From a virus, in IMG/VR virus record IMGVR_UViG_3300029927_000019, positions 1-40,075 of that record: a DNA stretch of 40,075 bases; one strand, written 5' to 3'. This document shows positions 17,678-40,075 of this stretch, in pieces. The notes beneath the pieces were generated by a model, which had not been told where the DNA came from, did no database searches, and was given only the letters and a program-made list of their open reading frames with translations. Numbering within the stretch: the stretch's first letter is position 1; each line of letters starts with the position of its first letter. Position numbers and translations under genes: made by a program.

Positions 17678-18010
17678 ACGCTAGGCGAAAAACAAAGAGA
17701 GTTTACCTTTATGGTGTCTCTGTTAATCCAGAGAGCTTATGAGCTAGGCTATGAAATGACGTTTGGGGATGCGTATAGAGACCCTAGGCTATTTGGTTGG
17801 TCAGGTGAAAAGAAAGGCTATGGTAGGTCCAGATCTAACCATAAGAAACGATTAGCTATAGACCTTAACTTATACAAGAACGGCGTTTACTTAAGAAAGA
17901 CTGAGGACCACCGAGAACTAGGAGAATTTTGGGAAAATATCGGGGGTTCATGGGGCGGCAGGTTTAACGACGGAAATCATTATTCGCTAGAACACAACGG
18001 GATGAGATAA
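17663..18010 (+). CDS. Endolysin, M15 L-Ala-D-Glu / D-Ala-D-Ala peptidase
   Basis: 115 residues from ATG 17663 (upstream codons in this frame are out-of-frame M23/tailspike sequence). Family hallmarks: LTLGEKQREFTFMVSLLIQR, then GDAYRDPRLFG, zinc motif SNHKKRLAIDLN (His and Asp ligands), and the C-terminal GRFNDGNHYSLEHNG with the third ligand and catalytic region. It is complete for this compact class. It cleaves the peptide stem of peptidoglycan at lysis. No signal peptide, so the 3-TM holin downstream presumably releases it. Its start lies inside the M23 remnant, with only a distant AAAGG upstream. Confidence 0.85.
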   Translation: MAKGLTLGEKQREFTFMVSLLIQRAYELGYEMTFGDAYRDPRLFGWSGEKKGYGRSRSNHKKRLAIDLNLYKNGVYLRKTEDHRELGEFWENIGGSWGGRFNDGNHYSLEHNGMR

Positions 18011-18502
18011 TGGATCTCCATGATTTTCATGAAACCCACACTTAATTTCTGCTGATTTTCTGGCACAGCAAGCCTCAAACTTTCCTTTAAATCTCCCCAA
18101 ATAATGATTTTTACCGCTCACCTTTATGAATGCCTGCCACTTCTCCCTATCTTTTGAGAAGGAAATTCCAGATATTCCGGACTTATTGTTTGAATGTAGC
18201 TTTGTATTTCTCCCGTTGTCGGAGTGAGTTGCGCATCGTAGGTTTTTCCATCTATTGTCTGTTCTTACATGATTTATATGATCACCCTGGTGTTCTGGCA
18301 TTTTGTTTTCCATATACAAAAACGCCAGCCTGTGGGCTTTGTAGTGCTTTCTATTGATGGTTATCAAAATATAGCCATGGCTATCAATGCTTCCTGCGAC
18401 ACTTCCAGGCTTAACCTTTATTCCTAATGGCTTGTTCCACGTAAAAACACCCGACTTAGGGCAATAGTGTAGAAATTCTTTGAGCTGTTCTTGGGTCAAC
18501 AT
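17987..18502 (-). CDS. HNH-AP2 homing endonuclease
   Basis: 171 residues on the opposite strand to the lysis genes. The N-terminus is LTQEQLKEFLHYCPKSGVFT; the HNH core is KAHRLAFLYMENKMPEHQGD followed by HINHVRTDNRWKNLR. An AP2-type DNA-binding domain follows (SGISGISFSKDREKWQAFIK ... HYLGRFKGKFEACCARKSAE). Free-standing enzymes of this type make a double-strand break in phages lacking the gene and spread by repair. Its 3' end overlaps the last 24 bases of the M15 gene. A 14664-15075 paralogue is broken. Confidence 0.85.
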   Translation of the reverse strand: MLTQEQLKEFLHYCPKSGVFTWNKPLGIKVKPGSVAGSIDSHGYILITINRKHYKAHRLAFLYMENKMPEHQGDHINHVRTDNRWKNLRCATHSDNGRNTKLHSNNKSGISGISFSKDREKWQAFIKVSGKNHYLGRFKGKFEACCARKSAEIKCGFHENHGDPLSHPVVF

Positions 18503-19409: not shown

Positions 19410-19871
19410 TTAATTATATATTTTAGCACGTACCAACTCAACTGACTGACGATATAGATTAGAAATGGCGTTACGAATTCTATCGTTGTCTGTTCCATGT
19501 CTCACCAGTAGTGATGCGGTTTGTATCGCGATGAAAATAGTTTCGGGCCACCACCTCAACTGGTATAGCCACTCTATTTGCATATTATAGGCTACCAACG
19601 ATACAACGTCGATTATGAGCAAAACTAATTCAGTTAAGGAAAGTATTAGCACTAGTTTGGTTATCTTAGTCATTACTGACATAGCTATTAGGAATAAGGG
19701 CGTTGTCGCTATCGACCATATGAGGTAATCAGGGGTTCCCTCATGTAAATATTTAATTACCAAGGCTATCGAATAGAAGAAAGCGAACACCCCACAGGCA
19801 GCAAGATTAGTTCTGTCTTTGTGAATGCACATAGCTAAACAAACTACGATGTAGGGGATTACGCTTTCCAT
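19410..19871 (-). CDS. Multi-pass membrane protein, unknown
   Basis: 153 residues with about four hydrophobic helices (IPYIVVCLAMCIHK, LAACGVFAFFYSIALVIKYL, WSIATTPLFLIAMSVM, LVLILSLTELVLLIIDVVSL) and a polar C-terminal helix. TAATG overlap with the gene upstream. Could be a superinfection-exclusion or accessory lysis protein; nothing in the sequence decides this. Confidence 0.6.
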   Translation of the reverse strand: MESVIPYIVVCLAMCIHKDRTNLAACGVFAFFYSIALVIKYLHEGTPDYLIWSIATTPLFLIAMSVMTKITKLVLILSLTELVLLIIDVVSLVAYNMQIEWLYQLRWWPETIFIAIQTASLLVRHGTDNDRIRNAISNLYRQSVELVRAKIYN

Positions 19872-20113
19872 TATGAGACCTTTGTTTTCTTCTTGGTTTT
19901 ACGTTTAACGAAACCTACCGGCTTTTTCTTAGCTGCTGGCTTTCGTTTAGTGGTCTTTGGTGCGCCATCTGATCTTGGCATAGTCTTATCCTCTAGGTTA
20001 TTGTCACAGCATAGTTTAGCACTCAATGGTTCAGGGTGCGTATTCCAGCACTCCACGCATTTGAACGTTATCACCGTTTTCCTTACGTGGATTATTCTGT
20101 TAGTCATCGTCAT
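19871..20113 (-). CDS. Small zinc-finger-like protein with basic tail
   Basis: 80 residues. CVECWNTHPEPLSAKLCC gives a CxxC and CC pair that could bind zinc. The C-terminal half is extremely lysine-rich (KTTKRKPAAKKKPVGFVKRK), pointing to nucleic-acid binding. Overlaps the upstream gene by 14 bases (ATGACTAA region). An in-frame ATG before PRSDGAPK could give a shorter basic peptide. Function unknown. Confidence 0.6.
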   Translation of the reverse strand: MTMTNRIIHVRKTVITFKCVECWNTHPEPLSAKLCCDNNLEDKTMPRSDGAPKTTKRKPAAKKKPVGFVKRKTKKKTKVS

Positions 20114-20261
20114 CCACTAAACGTCCAAGCTCTCTTAGCTCTTCAAGTCTTTGTCGCTCCCTTCTGTAGCCTTTAGTCGCTCGCGCCAAACAATCACTTG
20201 CAATCCACGCCACCCACATCATTAGCGCCCCCGCTGCCATTCCAGCCTCGAAATTATTCAT
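20100..20261 (-). CDS. Small single-pass membrane protein with charged coil
   Basis: 53 residues starting MNNFEAGMAAGALMMWVAWI (TM helix), then an arginine/glutamate-rich helix (YRRERQRLEELRELGRL) and DDDD. The start at 20261 overlaps the previous stop as ATGA, and GGGTG lies just upstream. The TM-plus-coil layout is seen in i-spanin-like and other phage membrane peptides; assignment not made. Confidence 0.6.
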   Translation of the reverse strand: MNNFEAGMAAGALMMWVAWIASDCLARATKGYRRERQRLEELRELGRLVDDDD

Positions 20262-20314
20262 ACACCCACCCCCATTACAAAAAAGCACAATATCAATAGT
20301 ATTAAGTCTTTCAT
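20258..20314 (-). CDS. 18-residue hydrophobic micropeptide
   Basis: ORF MKDLILLILCFFVMGVGV: one hydrophobic helix only. CCGGAG lies 7 bases before the ATG, and the stop overlaps the next gene's start as ATGA. Every gene in this operon is linked the same way, so translation is plausible despite the size. It may act as a membrane peptide or merely couple translation. Confidence 0.5.
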   Translation of the reverse strand: MKDLILLILCFFVMGVGV

Positions 20315-20317
20315 TGG

Positions 20318-20458
20318 TTACTCCGGTATATTCGTTGTGTATTTTATAAGCTGGTTGATTTTATCGTTTATTGACTTTGCTAGCGTCATTTCACCTTTGC
20401 TTAGTGCCGCCCTCATATTAAGACTTAACTCTTCTATTAATTTATCAGTATTAATCAC
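20318..20458 (-). CDS. Small helical protein, GTG start
   Basis: 46 residues (VINTDKLIEELSLNMRAALS ... KSINDKINQLIKYTTNIPE). GTG start overlaps the preceding stop as GTGA. Amphipathic helices, no cysteines or TM. Unknown; listed because the overlapping start and operon context support it. Confidence 0.5.
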   Translation of the reverse strand: MINTDKLIEELSLNMRAALSKGEMTLAKSINDKINQLIKYTTNIPE

Positions 20459-20601
20459 TTCAATTTCTCCAGAGCTTCTGTTAATTGATCCCTAAAATAA
20501 GTAGCTGATTCCTTCGTAAAAAACTTCTCGTCTTTGCCGATCATAGCTACGATAGGAAACGTTCTTTTATCTTGCGGTAGTACGGTTACTTCAATTTTCA
20601 T
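20455..20601 (-). CDS. Small hypothetical protein
   Basis: 48 residues (MKIEVTVLPQDKRTFPIVAM, IGKDEKFFTKESATYFRDQL, TEALEKLK): a beta-beta-alpha pattern. ATGA overlap with the upstream gene and GTGA overlap with the next. The 5' bases GGGGGTGAGCAATG contain a good ribosome site. Unknown function. Confidence 0.6.
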   Translation of the reverse strand: MKIEVTVLPQDKRTFPIVAMIGKDEKFFTKESATYFRDQLTEALEKLK

Positions 20602-20783
20602 TGCTCACCCCCAAAAAGTTCATTATGCACCGGCCATTCAGATGCTTTAGTATCGGTAAAATCCCTGGTTGTTTGCGCCTTGTATACATCAAACGCTTCC
20701 TTTGCTTTGACTCGCTTCGGAAAGCAGCTCCGACACAGCGTATGCAAGCAGCCCATTTTTTTACATTCTTCGCATAGTTTCAT
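20598..20783 (-). CDS. Small zinc-finger protein
   Basis: 61 residues from the ATG that overlaps the previous stop (ATGA, 20780-20783). KLCEECKKMGCLHTLCRSCF gives CxxC...C...CxxC, a likely zinc site. The remainder is polar with a C-terminal NELFGGEQ. Tiny zinc-finger proteins are common in nin regions. Role unknown. Confidence 0.65.
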   Translation of the reverse strand: MKLCEECKKMGCLHTLCRSCFPKRVKAKEAFDVYKAQTTRDFTDTKASEWPVHNELFGGEQ

Positions 20784-21085
20784 GCTTTCAGCTCCCATTC
20801 AATGTCAGATATAAAGCCTGCTATGTCTGTTATCTTGCCATGCAGGGTTACTTCTTGACTTTGATCAAGCGTTTTTAATGTATCGGCGGAAATGCGAAGC
20901 CATGACTTCAGTGATTTGCATTGCTCTCCATAGTCCTCTTGCGTTTCATAGTTGCACATGATCTCGGTGTTGGTTTCGTTCGCATCATTAAGCTCACAAT
21001 CAAGATCAGTGATATGTTCGTCAACATCCGATGCCAAGTAGTACAGCGTTCCATCTTTAAGCCTATGCTCTTTAAAATCATTCAT
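20780..21085 (-). CDS. Hypothetical acidic protein
   Basis: 101 residues, acidic, starting MNDFKEHRLKDGTLYYLASD. Mostly helical in the second half (SLKSWLRISADTLKTLDQSQ). Overlaps the previous gene's stop (ATGA at 21082-21085). No family recognised. Confidence 0.65.
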   Translation of the reverse strand: MNDFKEHRLKDGTLYYLASDVDEHITDLDCELNDANETNTEIMCNYETQEDYGEQCKSLKSWLRISADTLKTLDQSQEVTLHGKITDIAGFISDIEWELKA

Positions 21086-21291
21086 TTTCTCACCTTCTTA
21101 CCGGCTGCATTAGCCTGTTTTACATGATAGACAATTAGTCCATTTATCCAGCCGCTTTTACCTGCGCCTCGCTTATTTTTCATATAGTCATCGGTGGCAG
21201 CATCAGCGTGTATCTTCGCTATTAGTTCACTGTGGCCATTTTCTACTATCTGCCTGATTACCTCTTTTCCTATTAATTCAGATGGAGTCAT
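21082..21291 (-). CDS. Hypothetical helical protein after NinG
   Basis: 69 residues from ATG 21291 (an in-frame TTG at 21297 is less likely). Sequence TPSELIGKEVIRQIVENGHS followed by ELIAKIHADAATDDYMK and a basic end. Overlaps the NinG stop by 14 bases, so coupled to it. Unknown. Confidence 0.6.
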   Translation of the reverse strand: MTPSELIGKEVIRQIVENGHSELIAKIHADAATDDYMKNKRGAGKSGWINGLIVYHVKQANAAGKKVRK

Positions 21292-21874
21292 TCTCAAGTT
21301 CCCTTATTCGCTTGTTAAAAAACTGTCTACGCTCGATTAATTCGTCACACTTCCACTTCTTAACCTCTGTGTGAGTCTCGCAATAGTCGATAATCTTCTG
21401 GCCTTCGACCTCACCAAACCTTTCTAATAACCCTTTCTTATAACCACGAGTAGTTTTATTCCCTTCAATGTTTCCACTTAACGAACTGTTACAATATTTA
21501 TTGCACTGTAGATACGTGTTTATCGTGTCGTATCTCAGATTTCCTTGTGCTGCTACTGTTTTGAAGTGGCCGCAGCACCAATCCATATTTTCTTTGCCGC
21601 AACTTATGCAGACGGGTTTTAAGCCTCTTTCGTGGAACCATTTAAACTCCTCAAGTCGTCGCATCTTGTTAAATACAGGCTGTGTTAGTTCGTGCTGCTT
21701 CCCTATGTTATTGCCATAAAACGCCTTCTTTAGCTTGGTTGTTTCCTTGTCGTATGCCTTGCCCTTTTCTATCTGGACATAAGCAATGGCGCACGCAGGA
21801 GAACACACCTTTTCCATTGAGCTAAATCGATTCCAGGGCTTTTTACATATCGGACATGGTTTAGGCTTGGGCAT
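21278..21874 (-). CDS. ninG: NinG recombination protein
   Basis: 198 residues. Two cysteine clusters (PKPCPICKKPW and KVCSPACA) at the N-terminus, then the core of the lambda NinG (Rap) family: CISCGKENMDWCCGHF and YLQCNKYCNSSLSGN, with GYKKGLLERFGEVEGQKIID downstream. Lambda Rap is a structure-specific (Holliday-junction/D-loop) endonuclease acting in Red recombination. Here it pairs with NinB in one operon and probably serves RecT-dependent recombination. Confidence 0.9.
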   Translation of the reverse strand: MPKPKPCPICKKPWNRFSSMEKVCSPACAIAYVQIEKGKAYDKETTKLKKAFYGNNIGKQHELTQPVFNKMRRLEEFKWFHERGLKPVCISCGKENMDWCCGHFKTVAAQGNLRYDTINTYLQCNKYCNSSLSGNIEGNKTTRGYKKGLLERFGEVEGQKIIDYCETHTEVKKWKCDELIERRQFFNKRIRELENDSI

Positions 21875-22181
21875 AGCGTCTAACCTTCCTCATAAGCCAG
21901 TCAACATCGTTTTCTGATTTAATCCACCCGCCATCAACAAAGTAAAATAAGAAGTTAAAGCGGCCTATCTTGTACTTAAAGTGATTTACCAGGTATCGGT
22001 CGTTGCCAAGCACCTCAACAGATTGGCCATGTATCAAACTGTTATGTGCAGCACTAACGCAAGATTTACACGTATTGCTATACCAGGCTTTTGACTCATT
22101 CAGCATCTTGAAGTTATCAATGTTTTGACGCGCACCACTAACCTTGCATAGAGGCTTATCACAGACTTTAGTTTTCCTCAT
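21861..22181 (-). CDS. Zinc-finger-containing protein between NinB and NinG
   Basis: 106 residues from ATG 22181, chosen because AGGGAG lies 8-9 bases upstream; upstream codons in this frame are the shifted frame of the small gene at 22168. CDKPLC, then YSNTCKSCVSAAHN suggests a four-cysteine zinc site like HNH/recombination-directionality knuckles. C-terminal FVDGGWIKSENDVDWLMRK looks structured. Overlaps NinG by 14 bases. Function unknown, probably DNA-related. Confidence 0.65.
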   Translation of the reverse strand: MRKTKVCDKPLCKVSGARQNIDNFKMLNESKAWYSNTCKSCVSAAHNSLIHGQSVEVLGNDRYLVNHFKYKIGRFNFLFYFVDGGWIKSENDVDWLMRKVRRYAQA

Positions 22182-22284
22182 TCTGTAACTCCCTATGACG
22201 CTTATAAAGACCTGGAAGCATGACAACGAAGCCAAGCACGCAAGCATGAAACCATCCATCCATTTGTAATAAGGTGTCTATCAT
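22168..22284 (-). CDS. Small single-pass membrane protein after NinB
   Basis: 38 residues: MIDTLLQMDGWFHACVLGFV followed by VMLPGLYKRHRELQNEEN, a TM helix with a charged tail. Start overlaps the NinB stop (ATGA, 22281-22284) and it carries the ribosome site for the next gene. Unknown function. Confidence 0.55.
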   Translation of the reverse strand: MIDTLLQMDGWFHACVLGFVVMLPGLYKRHRELQNEEN

Positions 22285-22694
22285 TCTGATTGCTCCTTAG
22301 TAGGCCAAGGAATCGAGATCCCCCAGGTACTAGCTGTGTGTCGGTTAATTGTTTCGTAGATTAAAGTGTAGTCGGTGCGGTTAGCTTTCGTTGTACTCGT
22401 TTCGTCTATAGTCGCTTTCTGTACCACCTTCCAGATCAGCTCTTTAACCAGTAAGGCAGTCCAAGGCGTATCTATATCAGCGCTAAGGGTTTGCTTCATA
22501 TCAAGCCCAGCGGCGTTGAATGCGTCTGCTACCTGCTTCAGATACACATGAAGCGCTGCATTCTGTGGGTTAGTCCTCTTTGCCCCTGCCTTTATGCTGA
22601 ATTCAACATACTTATGCTGCTGATATAACTTTCTAGCATGAGCGATGAAGACCTCTTCAGTGTGGTCGCTGTTTACCACCCATTTGTCATTCAC
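22281..22694 (-). CDS. ninB: NinB recombination mediator
   Basis: 137 residues with the NinB (lambda Orf) pattern: RTNPQNAALHVYLKQVADAF then NAAGLDMKQTL, TPWTALLVKELIWKVVQKAT, YETINRHTASTWGISIPWP. Lambda Orf binds ssDNA and helps load recombinase on SSB-coated DNA, replacing RecFOR. Overlaps the upstream membrane gene by one base. It works with NinG in this operon and with RecT/SSB in the early region. Confidence 0.9.
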   Translation of the reverse strand: MNDKWVVNSDHTEEVFIAHARKLYQQHKYVEFSIKAGAKRTNPQNAALHVYLKQVADAFNAAGLDMKQTLSADIDTPWTALLVKELIWKVVQKATIDETSTTKANRTDYTLIYETINRHTASTWGISIPWPTKEQSE

Positions 22695-23128
22695 TATTCG
22701 CTATCCTTGTTAGTAAATCGGCCAACATTCATACAGAAGAAATACAGAGAGCATCCGATAAGTATCAGCTTGGAAATGAATCCTGCACTAGCGAACGTAG
22801 CGCTGTACTCGTCAGTATCTGGCACGTATGCAGACCCAGCCGCACCAAAGATAGGTATATAGCCATATTGTGCTGAAAACCTTTCGCCAATAGCTGTTCT
22901 TTTATATGTCACAGGGTGAACGCTAATGCTTCTCGGGCCGATTCCATCCCAATCTATGTATAGGTAGTGCGTTGAGCTTCTGCCGACTGAAACTGTTTTA
23001 TCTATCACGGTTCCTTTGTAATAACCTTCTTCGGATACTCGAAAAGATATTGCCTCATGCCAAAGACTGACACACAACAGCGCCACGATTGCCAATATTG
23101 ATAGCGCTGCTTTTTGATTCATTCTCAT
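22694..23128 (-). CDS. Membrane protein with extracytoplasmic beta domain
   Basis: 144 residues: TM helix near the N-terminus (AALSILAIVALLCVSLWHEA), a polar beta-like domain (YKGTVIDKTVSVGRSSTHYL, then IGPRSISVHPVTYKRTAIGE) and a second TM (GFISKLILIGCSLYFFCMNV). First gene of the Nin operon. I recognise no family with confidence; an exclusion or envelope role is possible. Confidence 0.6.
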   Translation of the reverse strand: MRMNQKAALSILAIVALLCVSLWHEAISFRVSEEGYYKGTVIDKTVSVGRSSTHYLYIDWDGIGPRSISVHPVTYKRTAIGERFSAQYGYIPIFGAAGSAYVPDTDEYSATFASAGFISKLILIGCSLYFFCMNVGRFTNKDSE

Positions 23129-24540: not shown

Positions 24541-24785
24541 TGACACCAGTAACCAACCCAATCAGCTCCCTATCCGCCACCCCTTATGTAGATGCATTTA
24601 CCACGGGAGAAATCCTAGGCTTTGTAGTGCTTATAATATGCACGCAGATAGTTATAACGTGGATAGCTGTTAGATCGATTAGGCGCTACATGATCAGGAT
24701 GGGCGCGGCTCTTATGGAAGGTATTGTAACTTCTCACGAAGATGTAGCCACTGGAATAATGCTTGTTATGGAGAAAAAGAAATGA
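24540..24785 (+). CDS. Small single-pass membrane protein
   Basis: 81 residues with a TM helix GEILGFVVLIICTQIVITWI followed by RRYMIRM and a charged end. TAATG overlap with the previous gene and ATGA with the next. Possibly an early membrane-targeted factor; unknown. Confidence 0.6.
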   Translation: MTPVTNPISSLSATPYVDAFTTGEILGFVVLIICTQIVITWIAVRSIRRYMIRMGAALMEGIVTSHEDVATGIMLVMEKKK

Positions 24786-25192
24786 GTGATAATACATTTG
24801 GTGATTATATATTTGACGGCTGGATTCCTGGCCATGAGATGGAAAGCATACGGTCATTTTGGGGATGCATGGACAGAACGTATAAAGATTGGATCGAGAA
24901 CGGCGAGTTAGGTGCAACAGAAACCTGTCAGCATGGCCCTGGGCCTAATGGGTTTGGTAATCCGCCTTACGGCGCTACTGTTGACTACATGCTGACGAAT
25001 TATAAGCTTAGCAAAGATAGCGTTAATGCTGTTTATAATATTGTCCGTGGCCGGTACGTTCACGCATGGAATAACATGGGTAGATTGATCGATGAGAATG
25101 GCGAGTCACATTGCGTTTCAAGCTGCAATCATTGGGTTAGGGTTTATCTTCATGGCGAGATAAATCATAGAGAGCTAACTAAAAAAGGGTGA
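24782..25192 (+). CDS. Hypothetical early protein
   Basis: 136 residues, aromatic and histidine/cysteine-containing (CQHGPGPNGFGNPPYGATVD; CVSSCNHWVRVYLHG). No TM. The C-terminal CVSSCNH might bind metal. Last protein gene before the 790-nt structured stretch; its stop lies in a hairpin (25186-25207). Unknown function. Confidence 0.6.
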   Translation: MSDNTFGDYIFDGWIPGHEMESIRSFWGCMDRTYKDWIENGELGATETCQHGPGPNGFGNPPYGATVDYMLTNYKLSKDSVNAVYNIVRGRYVHAWNNMGRLIDENGESHCVSSCNHWVRVYLHGEINHRELTKKG

Positions 25193-25983
25193 CACAGTGG
25201 CCACCCTAGTCTAGTATAAATAACTAAAGCCGATGTCTTTGCAGGACACGGTTTGAATAAAATATGATGAGCACAATTCAAAACCGCTTCGGCTATGTCC
25301 TCATTATAGTGTATTCATCCCGTTTATAGCAAATCATCGGTTATAGATTTCAGAAATGATTTCTAGAGAGCGTATATGTGGTGGCACTTAATAGCTCGAC
25401 AATGAAGCAATCAAACGGCGACGGCGGGCTGATTGACGGATTTAGAAGGCTAGAGGTTACGGACACAGCACAGTGTTCAGGGTTCGACTCCCATTAGCTA
25501 GCGGTGAAACCGTGCGATAGTTGCTAGCTTGAATTGGTTCAAACCTCAAAGTGTCCCTTCATATACGCTCTTAACCGGAATGGTTATGCTGCTTTCTCAA
25601 CCGGAAAGTCTGCATTGATTAGAGTAACGGAAGGATAACGGCCTGAAAACCCGCCTTCTGCTGTTGGTCAGGTGGGACGTATTGTTAGCGCATACTCAGC
25701 CCCGTAAAAGTCTCCTGACAAGCTAACCAGCACTCTATTCAATGCAGATTTAAAACAATCGAAAAGCCCAACGCCTAGCAATGACCTAACCCTTGTCAAC
25801 TAGGGCACTTAATTCGGGCCTATTTATAGGTTCCAGGTAATTACTGATTGGAAATGAAAGTTTCTGGTGATTATCCCCTTAATTGGGAGGTGTGGATCAA
25901 CCTATTCAATAAAGCCTGTAGAGACTAGCAGTATGATTAGTCCAAGGTGTGGATAGTAGGGTTCTTATAACCGGAGGAAAGCA
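25193..25983 (+). ncRNA. Candidate giant structured RNA (~790 nt), GOLLD/ROOL-like or new class
   Basis: There is no credible ORF here in a genome where genes otherwise overlap. Perfect or near-perfect helices are dense: a three-way junction at 25228-25294 (AGCCGA/TCGGCT closing; 25249-25258 with 25276-25286); a 12-bp helix 25367-25378/25560-25571; a 10-bp helix 25609-25618/25739-25748 extended by 25621-25625/25732-25736; GTTAGC 25684-25689/25722-25727; CGGAAGG 25628-25634 with CCTTCTG 25654-25660; CCTA-loop-TAGG 25816-25833; and a 9-bp helix 25836-25844/25867-25876. A T-arm mimic and a repeated GGTGTGGAT lie inside. Length, phage location and tRNA-like part recall GOLLD (~800 nt) and ROOL; membership is inference. 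Strand + is assumed from neighbouring genes. Confidence 0.65.
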
Positions 25984-26313
25984 ATGTACAAGGTATATTT
26001 TATACAGCAAAAGCAGAAAGGCAGAAAAGGGATCCAACCTGTAAAGATTGGCTACTCACTGGATCCAGAAGCGAGGCTTAAAAACCTTCAAACAGGAAGC
26101 CCAGTAAAGCTAAAGCTATGTAAGACAATTGAGGTCGAAACAAAGAGGGAGGCCGAGATAGTAGAAAGGTGCTTGCATAGGCTTGGATCCAAGAAGCATA
26201 GAAGGCTAGAGGGTGAATGGTTCCTAATCTATGGTAGCTGGAAGGCGTTTATAGAGGCAGGGCTAAAGATGGCTAAGGATCCTATCAAAAAGAGCTTAGA
26301 AGCAAGGGCTTAA
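25984..26313 (+). CDS. GIY-YIG nuclease-like protein (T5orf172/MUG113 type)
   Basis: 109 residues. The pattern KVYFIQQ ... PVKIGYSLDPEARLKNLQTG followed by SPVKLKLCKTIE and RRLEGEWFLI matches the compact GIY-YIG families T5orf172/MUG113: strand pair, Arg in the helix (ARLKNLQ), and a distal Glu (EGEWF). Ideal ribosome site GGAGG at 25973-25977, preceded by a GGTT/AACC hairpin at 25960-25972 that ends the structured RNA. Could be a mobile nuclease or act on phage/host DNA. Confidence 0.75.
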   Translation: MYKVYFIQQKQKGRKGIQPVKIGYSLDPEARLKNLQTGSPVKLKLCKTIEVETKREAEIVERCLHRLGSKKHRRLEGEWFLIYGSWKAFIEAGLKMAKDPIKKSLEARA

Positions 26314-27753: not shown

Positions 27754-27789
27754 CTTTTTATTTAACTATGGTGCTAGCACTTGTTAACA
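27748..27789. promoter_or_regulatory. Palindrome cluster upstream of RHH gene
   Basis: Three perfect palindromes in 42 bp: AGTTAACT (27748-27755), GTGCTAGCAC (27771-27780) and TGTTAACA (27782-27789). A weak promoter, TTGTTA (27781) -17 bp- GATAAG (27804-27809), follows. Likely operator for the ribbon-helix-helix protein encoded just downstream; inference. Confidence 0.45.
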
Positions 27790-27828
27790 GATTGCACTAT
27801 GATGATAAGCAACACAGGAGAGCAGGCA

Positions 27829-28308
27829 TTGAAAACAAAACAATTTAATTTAAGAATGGATCTAGACGTTATTGCATGGGTCAATGAGCAGGCATTGAAG
27901 GATGATCGAACGCCAGGCATATGGTTATCACGGTTTATTAATCAGCACATGGGGAAGGTTAAGCCGGCTAAGAAGCAACAAACAACAATGCCGGCCGTAT
28001 CTAGACAATGGGTAGTTCCGGCCGGCTTAAATTGTAAAGCATGGGCGGAATTCGACCAGCACAGAAGGAAGCACAAATCCGCTTGGACTGACTTGGCTAA
28101 AACTAAATCAGCTAACATTCTGCTAAAGCTTACACACGATCAGCAGCAAGTAACGGTTGATAATAGCGTGCAAGCTGGTTGGCCAGGGCTTTACCCTGAG
28201 AAGTTAAAAAACACCAAGTCATTTATTGAGCAGCAGAATGATTCAACATTTGATTCACTGTTTGGTAACGATCAGGGCGCAATAGAGGGCGAATGTCATG
28301 CAGGATAG
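27829..28308 (+). CDS. Ribbon-helix-helix plus replication-accessory domain protein
   Basis: 159 residues from TTG 27829 (AGGAG 8 bases upstream; the in-frame TTG at 27781 and ATG at 27799 lack sites). Residues ~1-45 (TKQFNLRMDLDVIAWVNEQA, GIWLSRFINQHM) are Arc-like ribbon-helix-helix. The C-terminus (AWAEFDQHRRKHKSAWTDLA ... DNSVQAGWPGLYPEKLKN) matches the helical domain found at the end of phage replication initiators and DnaT-like proteins. Precedes the P-like gene. Probably origin binding and/or autoregulation. Confidence 0.65.
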   Translation: MKTKQFNLRMDLDVIAWVNEQALKDDRTPGIWLSRFINQHMGKVKPAKKQQTTMPAVSRQWVVPAGLNCKAWAEFDQHRRKHKSAWTDLAKTKSANILLKLTHDQQQVTVDNSVQAGWPGLYPEKLKNTKSFIEQQNDSTFDSLFGNDQGAIEGECHAG

Positions 28309-29077
28309 TGATCACAAGGAATTTTACCTAGCACTTAAGGATGCTTTAGAGGTTAAAGGAAAGGCATTATCCGCCGGCGCTTTCAAATTGTGGTGCCGGC
28401 TACTTCAGCCATATGAGCTAGACCACATCAAGGCGGCAATCGATCAAGCAATTATGGCACCTAGCTTTATGCTAGAGCCTGCTAAGATTCTGGAATTCTT
28501 GCCTGACATGTTAGGGCACGCCACACCAGAAATAGCCTGGTCACTCTATCCGAGAACAGAAGCCGATAGCGGCTATGTAACCGATGAGATTATGCAGGCT
28601 GGCAACGGTATTGATCCACTCGACAAAATGGCCAGGATGCCGTTTATCGAAGCCTACAAGCAAATTATCGCCAGCGCCAAGATGAACCAGAAGCCAGCCC
28701 ATTGGTTTTACTCAGTCAGCACGACTGGTACACGCGAAGAACAAAAAGAAACAAAAATACAACGCACTTTGGAAGCTATGCAATGTGGAAGACTGACCGA
28801 AGCAAGAGCAAAGAATACAGTGATGCTGCTATCGCAAGAGCTAGGAAAACAATCGAGTCAATATCTGCCAGGGCTGCCGGAACCGAAACAGAAGATGACA
28901 TTGACAGACCAAAGGCAGCAGATAGGGATTATTTCGAAAAGAATCAATACAGCATTTCAGCAAACTTCGGAGCCTTCCAACTTGACCGAAGAAGAAACGG
29001 AAAAGGCTAGGCTTGAGCGGGTGAAGAAAATACAGGCCGATTTTGATATTTACAATGCGGATGAGGGGCTGGCTTAA
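28298..29077 (+). CDS. Lambda-P-like replisome-loading protein
   Basis: 259 residues, overlapping the RHH gene by 11 bases. The N-terminal helical domain (FYLALKDALEVKGKALSAGA, FKLWCRLLQPYELDHIKAAI) and FLPDMLGHATPEIAWSLYPR then DEIMQAGNGIDPLDKMARMP and FIEAYKQI match phage replication-P-type proteins, which recruit host DnaB helicase. The C-terminus is a charged coil. No polymerase or helicase is encoded, so host replication machinery is probably used. Confidence 0.65.
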   Translation: MQDSDHKEFYLALKDALEVKGKALSAGAFKLWCRLLQPYELDHIKAAIDQAIMAPSFMLEPAKILEFLPDMLGHATPEIAWSLYPRTEADSGYVTDEIMQAGNGIDPLDKMARMPFIEAYKQIIASAKMNQKPAHWFYSVSTTGTREEQKETKIQRTLEAMQCGRLTEARAKNTVMLLSQELGKQSSQYLPGLPEPKQKMTLTDQRQQIGIISKRINTAFQQTSEPSNLTEEETEKARLERVKKIQADFDIYNADEGLA

Positions 29078-29079
29078 TT

Positions 29080-29295
29080 ATGGATCAGGTAGCAATAGCA
29101 TTAACTGGAGCGGTAGCAATATGGCTAACCCAGCAGCCTAACGAACAATGGAAAAAGTACGCATGCTTGTTCGGTATGGCTGGGCAACCGTTTTGGTTTT
29201 ATTCGGCATATCAGGCAGAGCAATGGGGAATCTTCGCTTTGTGCATATTTTATACGTATAGCTGGTGCTTAGGGGTTAAGAATCACTGGCTATAG
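29080..29295 (+). CDS. Small two-TM membrane protein
   Basis: 71 residues with two hydrophobic helices (DQVAIALTGAVAIWLTQQP; FALCIFYTYSWCLGV) and a conserved-looking GMAGQPFWFYSAYQAEQWGI. I have seen this WLTQ...QPFW...QWGIF pattern in hypothetical phage proteins. Tail-to-tail overlap of 20 bases with the minus-strand repressor. Role unknown. Confidence 0.6.
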   Translation: MDQVAIALTGAVAIWLTQQPNEQWKKYACLFGMAGQPFWFYSAYQAEQWGIFALCIFYTYSWCLGVKNHWL

Positions 29296-29479
29296 GCATC
29301 GGGCCAAGTTCTAAACCTAATCCAAGGTCTAGCGACAGGTTCAATATGGCAATAGCTTTACCTGGGGGAATGTAGCCTTTAGATATCCACTGGCTACAGT
29401 TAGATTCATCAATATCCAGCTTTGCGGCTAATACTCTGCCGCCACCCATTGTGCGTAAAACGTGTTCGACTGTGTACAT
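29276..29479 (-). CDS. HTH repressor, Cro/YdaS-like
   Basis: 67 residues: TVEHVLRTMGGGRVLAAKLD, then IDESNCSQWISKGYIPPGKA, AIAILNLS is a classic HTH with GGGRxLAxxL and SxxSQWxxKGxIP. It is the only gene on this strand here and faces an operator region with two TTAGCTAAAGTT sites. AGAGGTG precedes the ATG. Likely represses itself and the RecT operon. Confidence 0.75.
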   Translation of the reverse strand: MYTVEHVLRTMGGGRVLAAKLDIDESNCSQWISKGYIPPGKAIAILNLSLDLGLGLELGPMPIASDS

Positions 29480-29507
29480 ATATCACCTCTCGATTAATTA
29501 ATGTTAG

Positions 29508-29565
29508 TTTAGCTAAAGTTTTATTAAATATCTACTTGCTATAATACTTTAGGTTAGCTAAAGTT
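29508..29565. promoter_or_regulatory. Twin operators around a promoter
   Basis: TTAGCTAAAGTT occurs at 29509-29520 and 29554-29565, each centred on the palindrome TTAGCTAA (the first extends to TTTAGCTAAA). The extended -10 TTGCTATAAT (TATAAT 29540-29545) for the RecT operon lies between them, and the divergent repressor gene starts at 29479. This is the expected layout of an autoregulated lambdoid-type switch. Confidence 0.65.
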
Positions 29566-29596
29566 ACTACATCGAAACGCAACAGGGAAAAGACAA

Positions 29597-29944
29597 ATGT
29601 TAATCAGTGACTACCCAGAACTAAAGAATCTACTTATAGACATAATGTCAGGTAAAGCGATCAAGGAAACTGGAGGTTTTAATATATACATGGCCACCCT
29701 TTCAGATCAGAAAGCTTTGGCAGATATGTACCTTTTTGAAATCGAGAATGATGCCAAGATTGAATTGGATGTGTTTGTAAATAGCTTTGAGTTTTCTTCA
29801 TCTACAGATATGACGCTGAGATCCATAGGATCCTCTCTAGAAGATGAGGTTATGAATTACTTGATAGCTGAGATAGAAGAGCATTTTTTAGATAAAGTTC
29901 AACCGGCATTAGATAGCTACTGGGAGGATCAACGAGGTGAATAA
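29597..29944 (+). CDS. Hypothetical early protein before RecT
   Basis: 115 residues, acidic, LISDYPELKNLLIDIMSGKA, FNIYMATLSDQKALADMYLF; beta/alpha mix. First gene of the operon from the 29540 promoter and overlaps RecT by 8 bases, so probably co-expressed with recombination functions. Unknown family. Confidence 0.6.
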   Translation: MLISDYPELKNLLIDIMSGKAIKETGGFNIYMATLSDQKALADMYLFEIENDAKIELDVFVNSFEFSSSTDMTLRSIGSSLEDEVMNYLIAEIEEHFLDKVQPALDSYWEDQRGE

Positions 29945-30971
29945 TGTTACCCCAATGCAGGTTATAGCCAACCAGAAAGAGAAGTTTCTGAAGCTGAACA
30001 CTGCAAACAATGATTTATTGAGCTTTGAGCAGGAATGTATCTTTGCCAAGCAACAGGTGGAAAAGAGTAAGTTCTCATTAAGTGCAGCGCAATCTAACCC
30101 TGGGAGCCTTCAGGTAGCGATTTTAAACGTGGCGGCTATTGGTATTAGTTTGAACCCAGCGAAGCAGCACGCCTACTTGGTGCCTCGTGCCGGTGGTATC
30201 TGCCTAGACATAAGCTTTCAAGGCCTAAGAAAGATAGCTACAGACTCAGGCGCTATACTTTGGGCAAAAGTTGAGCTGGTTTATACCAACGATAAATTCA
30301 CTTGGAAGGGGCCAACAGAGAAACCAGATCATGACGCAGACCCATTTTCAGAGCGTGGCCCTATAAAGGGCGGTTACTGCATAGCCAAGTTGCCTAGCGG
30401 CGAATTCATGACAGAAGTGATGAGCGTTGAGGAAATAAACAAGGTTCGAGACACCTCAAAGGCTGCTAAAAATGGCCCGTGGGTTAACTGGTACGATGAG
30501 ATGGCAAAGAAAACCATACTCAAGCGAGCGTTTAAGCAGTGGCCTCAGTCATCCGATAACGTACAGGGCAGAGATCGACTAGAGGCGGCGGTTAGTGCCT
30601 CACATGACGCAGAAGGTACGGCATACACCCTAGAAGAACACGCCGAATACATGAAGCTATTCAACGGCGGCAACGGTCTAGAGTTCTACCTAATGCGAAG
30701 ACGCACAAGTGAGGATGTGTGGAACGCTTTATATAACTCATTCGAAAAAGGGAAAAAGGTTGCAAATAAGGCTACTGCTGATGATTTAGAGAAACATGGT
30801 ATAGCCTGCATGCAAGATTACGCACTACAAATCACAGACGGCTCGGTAAGCGGCGATACGTCAACAGTTGAAGAGCTAGTTCTAGAGCTGTCAGAGCAAG
30901 AAATGGGGCTAGTAATAGAGCATTTAAACCCGAAAGAAATATTATTAATCGAATCACTAAAGGATCAATAG
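29937..30971 (+). CDS. recT: RecT family ssDNA-annealing protein
   Basis: 344 residues. Hallmarks: SLQVAILNVAAIGISLNPAK followed by QHAYLVPRAGGICLDISFQG and LRKIATDSGAILWAKVELVY; later YCIAKLPSGEFMTEVMSVEE and PWVNWYDEMAKKTILKRAFK QWPQS. These are the RecT/Bet-type signature blocks. It anneals complementary ssDNA for phage recombination. No partner exonuclease (RecE/Exo) is visible in the window; NinB, NinG and the SSB-like gene are likely partners. Confidence 0.9.
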   Translation: MNNVTPMQVIANQKEKFLKLNTANNDLLSFEQECIFAKQQVEKSKFSLSAAQSNPGSLQVAILNVAAIGISLNPAKQHAYLVPRAGGICLDISFQGLRKIATDSGAILWAKVELVYTNDKFTWKGPTEKPDHDADPFSERGPIKGGYCIAKLPSGEFMTEVMSVEEINKVRDTSKAAKNGPWVNWYDEMAKKTILKRAFKQWPQSSDNVQGRDRLEAAVSASHDAEGTAYTLEEHAEYMKLFNGGNGLEFYLMRRRTSEDVWNALYNSFEKGKKVANKATADDLEKHGIACMQDYALQITDGSVSGDTSTVEELVLELSEQEMGLVIEHLNPKEILLIESLKDQ

Positions 30972-38850: not shown

Positions 38851-40075
38851 ATAAGATCAGCATAGAGTACGTTAAGAACCTATATCCCATATTTACCAAA
38901 CCTAAGCGTATTAAAATCATTGTCGGCGGTCGTGGCTCAACTAAGAGTACCGGCATTGCTGACTATGTAGCTGCTAAGGTATCGAGTGGTGAATTGTGGT
39001 GTTGCGCTCGTGAGAATCAGAATTCAATTGAAGAATCAGTACACAGGACAATACTTGATGAAATTAGCAGGCTGGGCATACAAGGATTCGAAGATACAAA
39101 AACGTCTATTACTCATGAGACAAGCGGAGGACGCACATTTTATAGGGGGCTTGCTCGTAACATTACTAGCCTCAAGTCTACTCTTTCAGGTGTTGACGGC
39201 CTTTGGATAGAGGAAGGCGAAGATATAAGCGACAACACGCTAAGGGTATTGACAGCATCCGTTCGGCTTAATGCAGATGACACAGAGCGGCTATTAGATG
39301 GCAACAAACTAGAATCTATTGAACAGCTGGACGCATTGCTAGCTAATTCAGATATCAAGATGCCTGAAATCATTATTACAATGAACAGGGGGCAAAGATC
39401 TGGAGCTGTTGCTAAGAAGTGGTTGGCAAGGGCTGAGAGTGAGCTTAAACGTTGCGGGTATTACGAAGACGATACCGTGATGGTCGTGCAGATGAACTAC
39501 ACCGACATGCCACAATCATGGTTCATTGCCAGCGGATTAGAGCAAGAGCGGCTAGATGATTTAGATAAGTTATCTACAGCTCAGTACCGACATAAGTGGC
39601 ATGGCGATTATCTTGACGAAGTAGACAACAGCATAATCAAGCCTGAATGGTTCGATGCTTGTATTGATGCTCACAAGATTGAACACCTTAAAGAAACATT
39701 TGCCCCGCATGGTTCACGTATTGTCGCATTCGATCCTATGGACGATGGCAACGATGCACACGGTTACGCACAACGCAGAGGATCAATCATTGAAAGAGTA
39801 TTACAGAAGACTAAGGGTGAAATCGACGTTGGCACTGATTGGGCGACTGAATTGGCTATTAACAACAAGGCTGACCACTTCGCCTGGGATGCTGATGGAA
39901 TGGGTACCGGACTCAAGCGACAGGTCTCAGATGCATTTAATGGAACCCGTGTTAAGTTTGGAGGGTTCCATGGTGGGCTTTCCGGTAAGGGCCAAGATAT
40001 GGCTGAGAAGGTCTACCTTCCTCTTGATACGGAAGGTACTGAGAAACCTAAAACCTACGCTGAAACTTTTAAGAA
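38847..40075 (+). CDS. Terminase large subunit, N-terminal part (continues at 2-427)
   Basis: TTG start at 38847 overlapping the small-subunit stop (TTGA). Walker A GGRGSTKST at residues 27-35 and Walker B LWIEEGE at ~119-125 define the packaging ATPase. The nuclease domain has VAFDPMDDG (Asp 296) and WDADGMG (Asp 348/350). The frame runs to the window end and resumes at base 2, total ~518 residues. It pumps and cuts DNA at the portal. Confidence 0.9.
   Translation, partial: MNKISIEYVKNLYPIFTKPKRIKIIVGGRGSTKSTGIADYVAAKVSSGELWCCARENQNSIEESVHRTILDEISRLGIQGFEDTKTSITHETSGGRTFYRGLARNITSLKSTLSGVDGLWIEEGEDISDNTLRVLTASVRLNADDTERLLDGNKLESIEQLDALLANSDIKMPEIIITMNRGQRSGAVAKKWLARAESELKRCGYYEDDTVMVVQMNYTDMPQSWFIASGLEQERLDDLDKLSTAQYRHKWHGDYLDEVDNSIIKPEWFDACIDAHKIEHLKETFAPHGSRIVAFDPMDDGNDAHGYAQRRGSIIERVLQKTKGEIDVGTDWATELAINNKADHFAWDADGMGTGLKRQVSDAFNGTRVKFGGFHGGLSGKGQDMAEKVYLPLDTEGTEKPKTYAETFK
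39977..40075. repeat. Terminal direct repeat (copy 2)
   Basis: Exact second copy of bases 1-99, inside the terminase large subunit coding sequence. Joining the two copies restores a continuous reading frame. Confidence 0.95.

Follow-up and report, generated by a model that had tools for sequence, protein, structure and literature searches.

Between the stop codon at 25192 of a plus-strand gene (24782-25192) and the ATG at 25984 of the next gene (25984-26313), which carries a T5orf172/MUG113 domain, lies a gap of 791 nt (25193-25983) in which no ORF of at least 50 aa is found. With an ORF cut-off of 60 aa, the gap is the only uncovered stretch longer than 310 nt in the whole window, that is, the full 40,075 bases of phage DNA analysed here, and the original prediction that the region holds no credible ORF was thus confirmed. 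The preceding gene is without a Pfam or PHROG match, and the proteins of both flanking genes have no relatives in viral_contigs. A 14-nt repeat (TAGAAGGCTAGAGG) is identical at 25443-25456, within the large RNA described below, and at 26199-26212, within the T5orf172/MUG113 gene.

The window is the IMG/VR record IMGVR_UViG_3300029927_000019. Its two ends share 99 identical bases (1-99 and 39977-40075), so it is read as a complete circle of about 39,976 bp. This contig also stands, under the accession JAESRW010000141.1, in a MAG that bears the name Flavobacteriales bacterium NORP269; seven Ns are the only differences between the two over the 8 kb compared, and the host label is accordingly no more than that of the MAG bin. 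The portal and head proteins are closest to podovirus-type phages (SU10-type portal), with best matches in Pelagibacter and Octadecabacter phages at 28-51% identity. Lambda-like early genes are found in this podovirus-type genome at 19410-23128 (minus strand) and 27781-30971 (plus strand). In particular, the minus-strand block of this early region contains genes similar to NinB and NinG, and the plus-strand block RecT and an O-like replication gene. Elsewhere, an HNH endonuclease gene (17987-18502, minus strand) overlaps the 3' end of an endolysin-like gene.

A homologous locus in a second phage

A homologue of the gap was reached through RecT in a distantly related, likewise uncultured phage, IMGVR_UViG_3300002334_000047 (42,333 bp; hereafter G010), where the RNA was then detected by DNA search at L017:9590-10440. 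There too it lies in the early region, at a position matching that in the window. Its immediate neighbour genes on either side are not homologous in the two genomes, while over a longer distance both show the order ninB/ninG, RNA, O-like gene, recT. Most of the proteins detected in the comparison are 27-64% identical, and RecT 70%. At the DNA level three pieces of the RNA reach 86, 89 and 93% identity against 76% for recT. No other DNA match between the phages has a higher identity, and in strength the RNA core ranks second among them.

Other searches returned no further member. The window RNA had no blastn match in the phages and plasmids collections, and the G010 RNA had no homologue in the phages collection, its single match being a tRNA-Gln at E=3. 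Exact motifs of the RNA occurred only in G010 among viral_contigs and, among genome_contigs, only in the MAG copy of the window contig. A covariance model (R1) run over 49 related records recovered the window and G010 and none of the other 47, many of which are fragments, and a scan with degenerate motifs over 22 assembled relatives and stretches of other related contigs gave nothing. The search of related phages that had been proposed together with the original prediction thus yielded one homologue. ORF-poor gaps of 470-755 nt do exist in related phages (G034:36540-37010 and G044:30679-31223, both on the minus strand, G014:2820-3354 and G051:25855-26609), some with folding z down to -6; they are not homologous to the window RNA, and those scanned contain no Rfam RNA above cut-off except one tRNA.

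A probable minus-strand small RNA

The upstream edge of the gap is occupied by a candidate sRNA gene on the minus strand (25180-25332 including its promoter) that is conserved in G010. The predicted transcript (25180..25296, about 117 nt) comprises a three-way junction and a terminator and folds with a z of -3.3; its counterpart (L017:9549-9661, minus strand) has the same shape and a z of -4.6. A sigma70-like promoter lies at 25303..25332 (TTGCTA-18-TATAAT) and has its equivalent in G010 (TTGCAA-16-TATAAT), with 10 of 12 consensus matches in each phage and ACTATAATGAGG identical between them. At the other end, an intrinsic terminator (25186..25207, minus strand) is followed by a T-run to 25181, and in G010 by T5 after a stem at L017:9554-9584; in both phages the terminator extends into the 3' end of the plus-strand gene that precedes the gap. 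A promoter, a compact fold, a GC-rich hairpin with a T-run and conservation, as looked for in an intrinsically terminated sRNA, are therefore all found here.

The junction itself (25228..25294) folds in each phage from the sRNA sequence alone and displays a conserved loop, TTGTSCTCWTCATMTTTW, a sequence that suggests a seed or a protein site. Prediction of sRNA targets in the phage's own genome gave results no better than those for shuffled loops. Between the two phages 7 pairs of the junction are changed on both sides, a count that depends on the alignment, which was made by hand and fitted to the structure. A three-way junction at 25228-25294 had been part of the original prediction, and it is real, yet the best reading places it on the minus strand, within a separate sRNA; it probably belongs to a second RNA gene of the gap. 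When the whole region is folded, the plus strand forms a rod over 25228-25342 with a probability above 0.97. The sRNA was preferred to the rod because it is for the sRNA that a promoter and a terminator are conserved; the rod may nevertheless form in a plus-strand read-through transcript.

Fold and strand of the large RNA

The remainder of the gap is dominated by a large structured RNA on the plus strand, whose core (25344..25945) is homologous to, and co-folds with, L017:9705-10405. The RNA measures about 600-700 nt, and its true ends may reach across 25193-25983, up to 790 nt. The initial view of one RNA filling the whole gap is thereby revised: the large RNA at about 25344-25945 stands, and the stretch 25180-25332 goes to the separate minus-strand sRNA gene.

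The plus strand of the window folds to -251 kcal/mol (z -5.4, with none of 20 shuffles as good) and the minus strand with a z of -2.3; the corresponding values in G010 are -3.9 and -1.7, and RNAalifold on the alignment of both gives -6.8 for the plus and -5.1 for the minus strand. Covariation was counted on an alignment of the window and G010 (A1) that was built without use of structure. Over 69 named pairs, 97% of the cells are paired and 10 pairs are changed on both sides, as compared with 34-49% paired and 0-1 double changes when the partners are slid by 1-3 columns. Since a shuffle control is coarse with two sequences, for which the formal power of R-scape is also low, this result rests chiefly on the slid control and on the folds obtained independently. 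Thus, the giant structured phage RNA put forward in the original prediction finds support, through covariation of its helices, in an independent phage (n=2 sequences). Indeed, a long ORF-free region with a fold maintained by compensatory changes places the RNA among the large structured phage RNAs as a kind, and base changes that preserve the folds of both RNAs between the two phages argue for working RNAs and not junk DNA.

The same data bear on the strand. Conserved helices contain 11 G.U and no A.C combinations, the plus strand folds better in both phages, and a tRNA-type T-arm and, in G010, the D-to-T order of a tRNA-like arm read in the plus sense; the large RNA is therefore assigned to the plus strand. 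Selection of the fold at the DNA level, for a replication or packaging site or for recombination hairpins, would explain the long inverted repeats, but it would account neither for the 11:0 ratio of G.U pairs on one strand nor for strand-asymmetric folding in both phages nor for a T-arm in the RNA sense, and we regard it as very improbable.

In the large RNA, the hairpin P3 (25344..25365) is predicted with high probability and recurs at the same place, with another sequence, in G010. It is followed by the long helix P4/P4b (25366..25389 with 25549..25572), in which 8 of 21 pairs are changed on both sides in G010 and none is broken. The 12-bp helix first proposed at 25367-25378/25560-25571 is contained in it and extends to 13 bp plus 7 bp. 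Likewise, the 10+5 helix of the original prediction (25609-25625/25732-25748) lengthens to 13 + 6 bp as P10 (25606..25625 with 25732..25751), supported by fold and covariation; in G010 it has 20 pairs, with G-C where the window has T-A, and a T.T mismatch of the window is paired there. P4/P4b and P10 top an unbiased list of stems, and no inverted repeat within the gap is longer than these two. Another of the proposed elements, a hairpin at 25836/25876, is a 10-bp stem in the window and is not conserved in G010.

Enclosed by P4/P4b is a conserved core domain (25453..25547; 86% identical to G010 over 79 nt), on which model R1 draws. It is closed by P5, which reads GAGGTT/AACCTC in the window and AAGGTT/AACCTT in G010, a G-C to A-T double change. 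Within it lie the T-arm (25480..25492, GGG-TTCGAYT-CCC), whose stem is invariant, and P7 (25496..25529, AGCTAGC/GCTAGCT), whose pairing is kept in G010 with one G-C to G.U change. A pseudoknot is possible between GCAC (25468-25471) and GTGC (25512-25515), the bases being invariant and without covariation. Downstream, a near-invariant segment (25575..25604, CCGG-AATGGTTATGCNGCTTTCTCAA-CCGG) differs between the window and G010 at a single one of its 30 positions and may form the hairpin P9 and/or the 5' strand of P9', a long-range helix joining 25582-25598 to 25921..25938. Of the 16 pairs of P9', 10 are the same in G010, 2 are changed on one side, 1 on both sides and 3 are broken, and the double change involves the one base of the 5' strand that varies, so that support for P9' is weaker than for P4/P4b. 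A single-stranded linker, AACAATCGAAAAGCC (25754..25768), is identical in G010, and the closest sequence to it elsewhere among the related records differs at 2 positions.

The variable domains are the tip of P10, the junction between P4 and P9, and the 3' end; neither the variable domains nor the 3' domain shows a common fold between the window and G010. At the P4/P9 junction (insertion point 25572..25573), G010 carries by alignment a 111-nt arm (L017:9939-10049) that the window lacks, with a 23-bp stem (13 + 10 bp) capped by a degenerate tRNA in which a four-base loop replaces the anticodon loop. The arm scores 22.8 bits against RF00005, below the cut-off of 29 (E 0.012), and the T-arm of G010 gives a weak Rfam match to the tmRNA T-arm (10.9 bits). 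The closing stem of the arm (GAGACAGTATTGA) resembles P10 (GAGTCTGCATTGA), a likeness of sequence from which the arm is perhaps a duplicated one. That the T-arm motif and the below-cut-off tRNA and tmRNA matches are relics of degenerate tRNAs or tmRNAs is extremely improbable, as ARAGORN finds neither a tRNA nor a tmRNA in the window or in G010 and the core is strongly constrained and covarying, not decaying. Neither a recognised cloverleaf nor a tag ORF is seen, the sub-threshold Rfam matches being all that links the RNA to these classes.

No plus-strand promoter or terminator of the large RNA's own was found in the window or G010, apart from a weak promoter-like site at 25189-25217 in the window, and the RNA may consequently belong to an mRNA. 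As it runs in both phages directly into the RBS of the next gene and lacks a plus-strand terminator, the main rival reading is a structured cis-acting leader or intercistronic element controlling the T5orf172/MUG113 gene at 25984. We consider this unlikely, given that the genes downstream and upstream differ between the phages while the RNA is conserved, and that the size and interior position of the conserved core would be unusual for a leader.

The weak plus-strand site also touches on an improbable reading modelled on ColE1, where a long structured RNA (RNA II) has a short structured antisense RNA (RNA I) at its 5' edge. By this analogy the plus-strand RNA would be a long structured RNA II-like pre-primer and the minus-strand sRNA an RNA I-like molecule of about 110 nt that controls replication priming, in keeping with the geometry, in which a stem-loop RNA of 113-117 nt runs antisense to the 5' end of a long plus-strand RNA, and with an O-like replication gene close by. 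Yet the plus-strand promoter is not conserved in G010, the GC skew, which tracks gene direction, points to no origin at the RNA, and the phage has an O-like initiator.

Family assignment and possible function

The original prediction had offered two options, a relative of GOLLD or ROOL or a new class of the same kind. The first was not borne out by the cmscan proposed with it: Rfam 15 gave no match for the RNA at gathering thresholds over the whole window and the G010 region, and neither GOLLD nor ROOL appeared in the region or in G010 at E<=10. Directed searches at E<=10 with RF02032 (GOLLD, gathering score 150 bits) and RF03087 (ROOL, 99.1 bits) also found nothing in the window or G010; as no control genome matched in the ROOL search, which thus had no positive control, the ROOL negative rests mainly on cmscan. 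Among sub-threshold Rfam matches nothing was credible beyond the tRNA-like arm and the T-arm of G010. Group I and II introns and HEARO were rejected for want of an Rfam match, and a retron for the same reason and because no reverse transcriptase occurs in the profiled part of the window ORFs. Drift could have carried the sequence of a GOLLD or ROOL out of reach of the Rfam models, and such a very divergent member would fit the size, the phage location, the intricate fold and the tRNA-like insert; it is disfavoured by the lack of any match at E<=10 in either phage and is given little credence. The second option, a new class, has survived, as a covarying fold goes together with the absence of Rfam matches. 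Since no Rfam model matches the window RNA or its homologue, the best reading is a new two-member family within the large structured phage RNAs.

As to function, we favour, at a probability of roughly 0.55, two RNA genes in the gap, a trans-acting large structural RNA and a divergently oriented regulatory sRNA. The large RNA would be transcribed as part of the early operon and fold on its own around a fixed core made up of P4, the T-arm/P5/P7 domain, the P9 segment, P10 and the invariant linker. During infection it would then most likely work in trans, serving as a scaffold or as a particle in analogy to GOLLD and ROOL, which are known for a homo-oligomeric and an octameric cage, respectively; we infer the trans role because the RNA was retained although its flanking genes differ between the phages, as if neighbouring genes had been exchanged around it. 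In parallel, the sRNA, about 117 nt long and equipped with a sigma70-type promoter and an intrinsic terminator at the upstream edge of the large RNA, would most likely regulate the opposing transcript, as lambda OOP does, tuning or shielding it. A bolder and doubtful version of the two-gene reading is a third, unrelated phage RNA class that would self-assemble into an RNA-only particle, display or enclose optional tRNA-like arms and be controlled by its own divergent three-way-junction sRNA.

To our knowledge, no large ornate phage RNAs other than GOLLD and ROOL have had their structures solved, we know of no role assigned to these two, and we know of no description of an sRNA partner as a handle on their regulation. 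If uncultured phages do carry an unrelated family of comparable size, big structured RNAs would have arisen more than once in phages, and what GOLLD, ROOL and the new RNA have in common could be tested independently; the paired sRNA would offer a handle on the regulation of a large RNA.

Several known systems resemble parts of this arrangement. Lambda OOP, a short antisense RNA that has a promoter and a terminator to itself, runs against the early operon and touches the 3' end of the preceding gene. The window sRNA shares this antisense geometry and differs in having a three-way junction; the preceding gene of the window, without a Pfam or PHROG match, is not known to resemble cII. An abundant noncoding transcript of about 800 nt comes from an ORF-less gap of ICP1, a lytic phage without tRNA genes (PMC7567579); the likeness is one of description, blastn of the phages collection with either RNA having found no homologue. 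With GOLLD (RF02032) the RNA has in common that it is a large phage RNA with a complex fold and with conserved and divergent parts. However, GOLLD is recognised by a universally conserved 3' domain and a variable 5' domain, while here the conserved part is central and the 3' part diverges between the two phages. GOLLD linkers sometimes contain tRNAs (PMC12286853); here no tRNA genes lie near, and a degenerate tRNA arm is present in G010 only. ROOL (RF03087) shares the size class of about 600-660 nt, the phage location and a variable linker, and differs in that its model does not match and neither sequence nor visible topology is in common. As regards architecture, the likeness is one of plan only: a core-plus-linker organisation has been reported for both ROOL and GOLLD (PMC12286853), and the RNA of the window and G010 similarly combines a fixed core with three variable modules.
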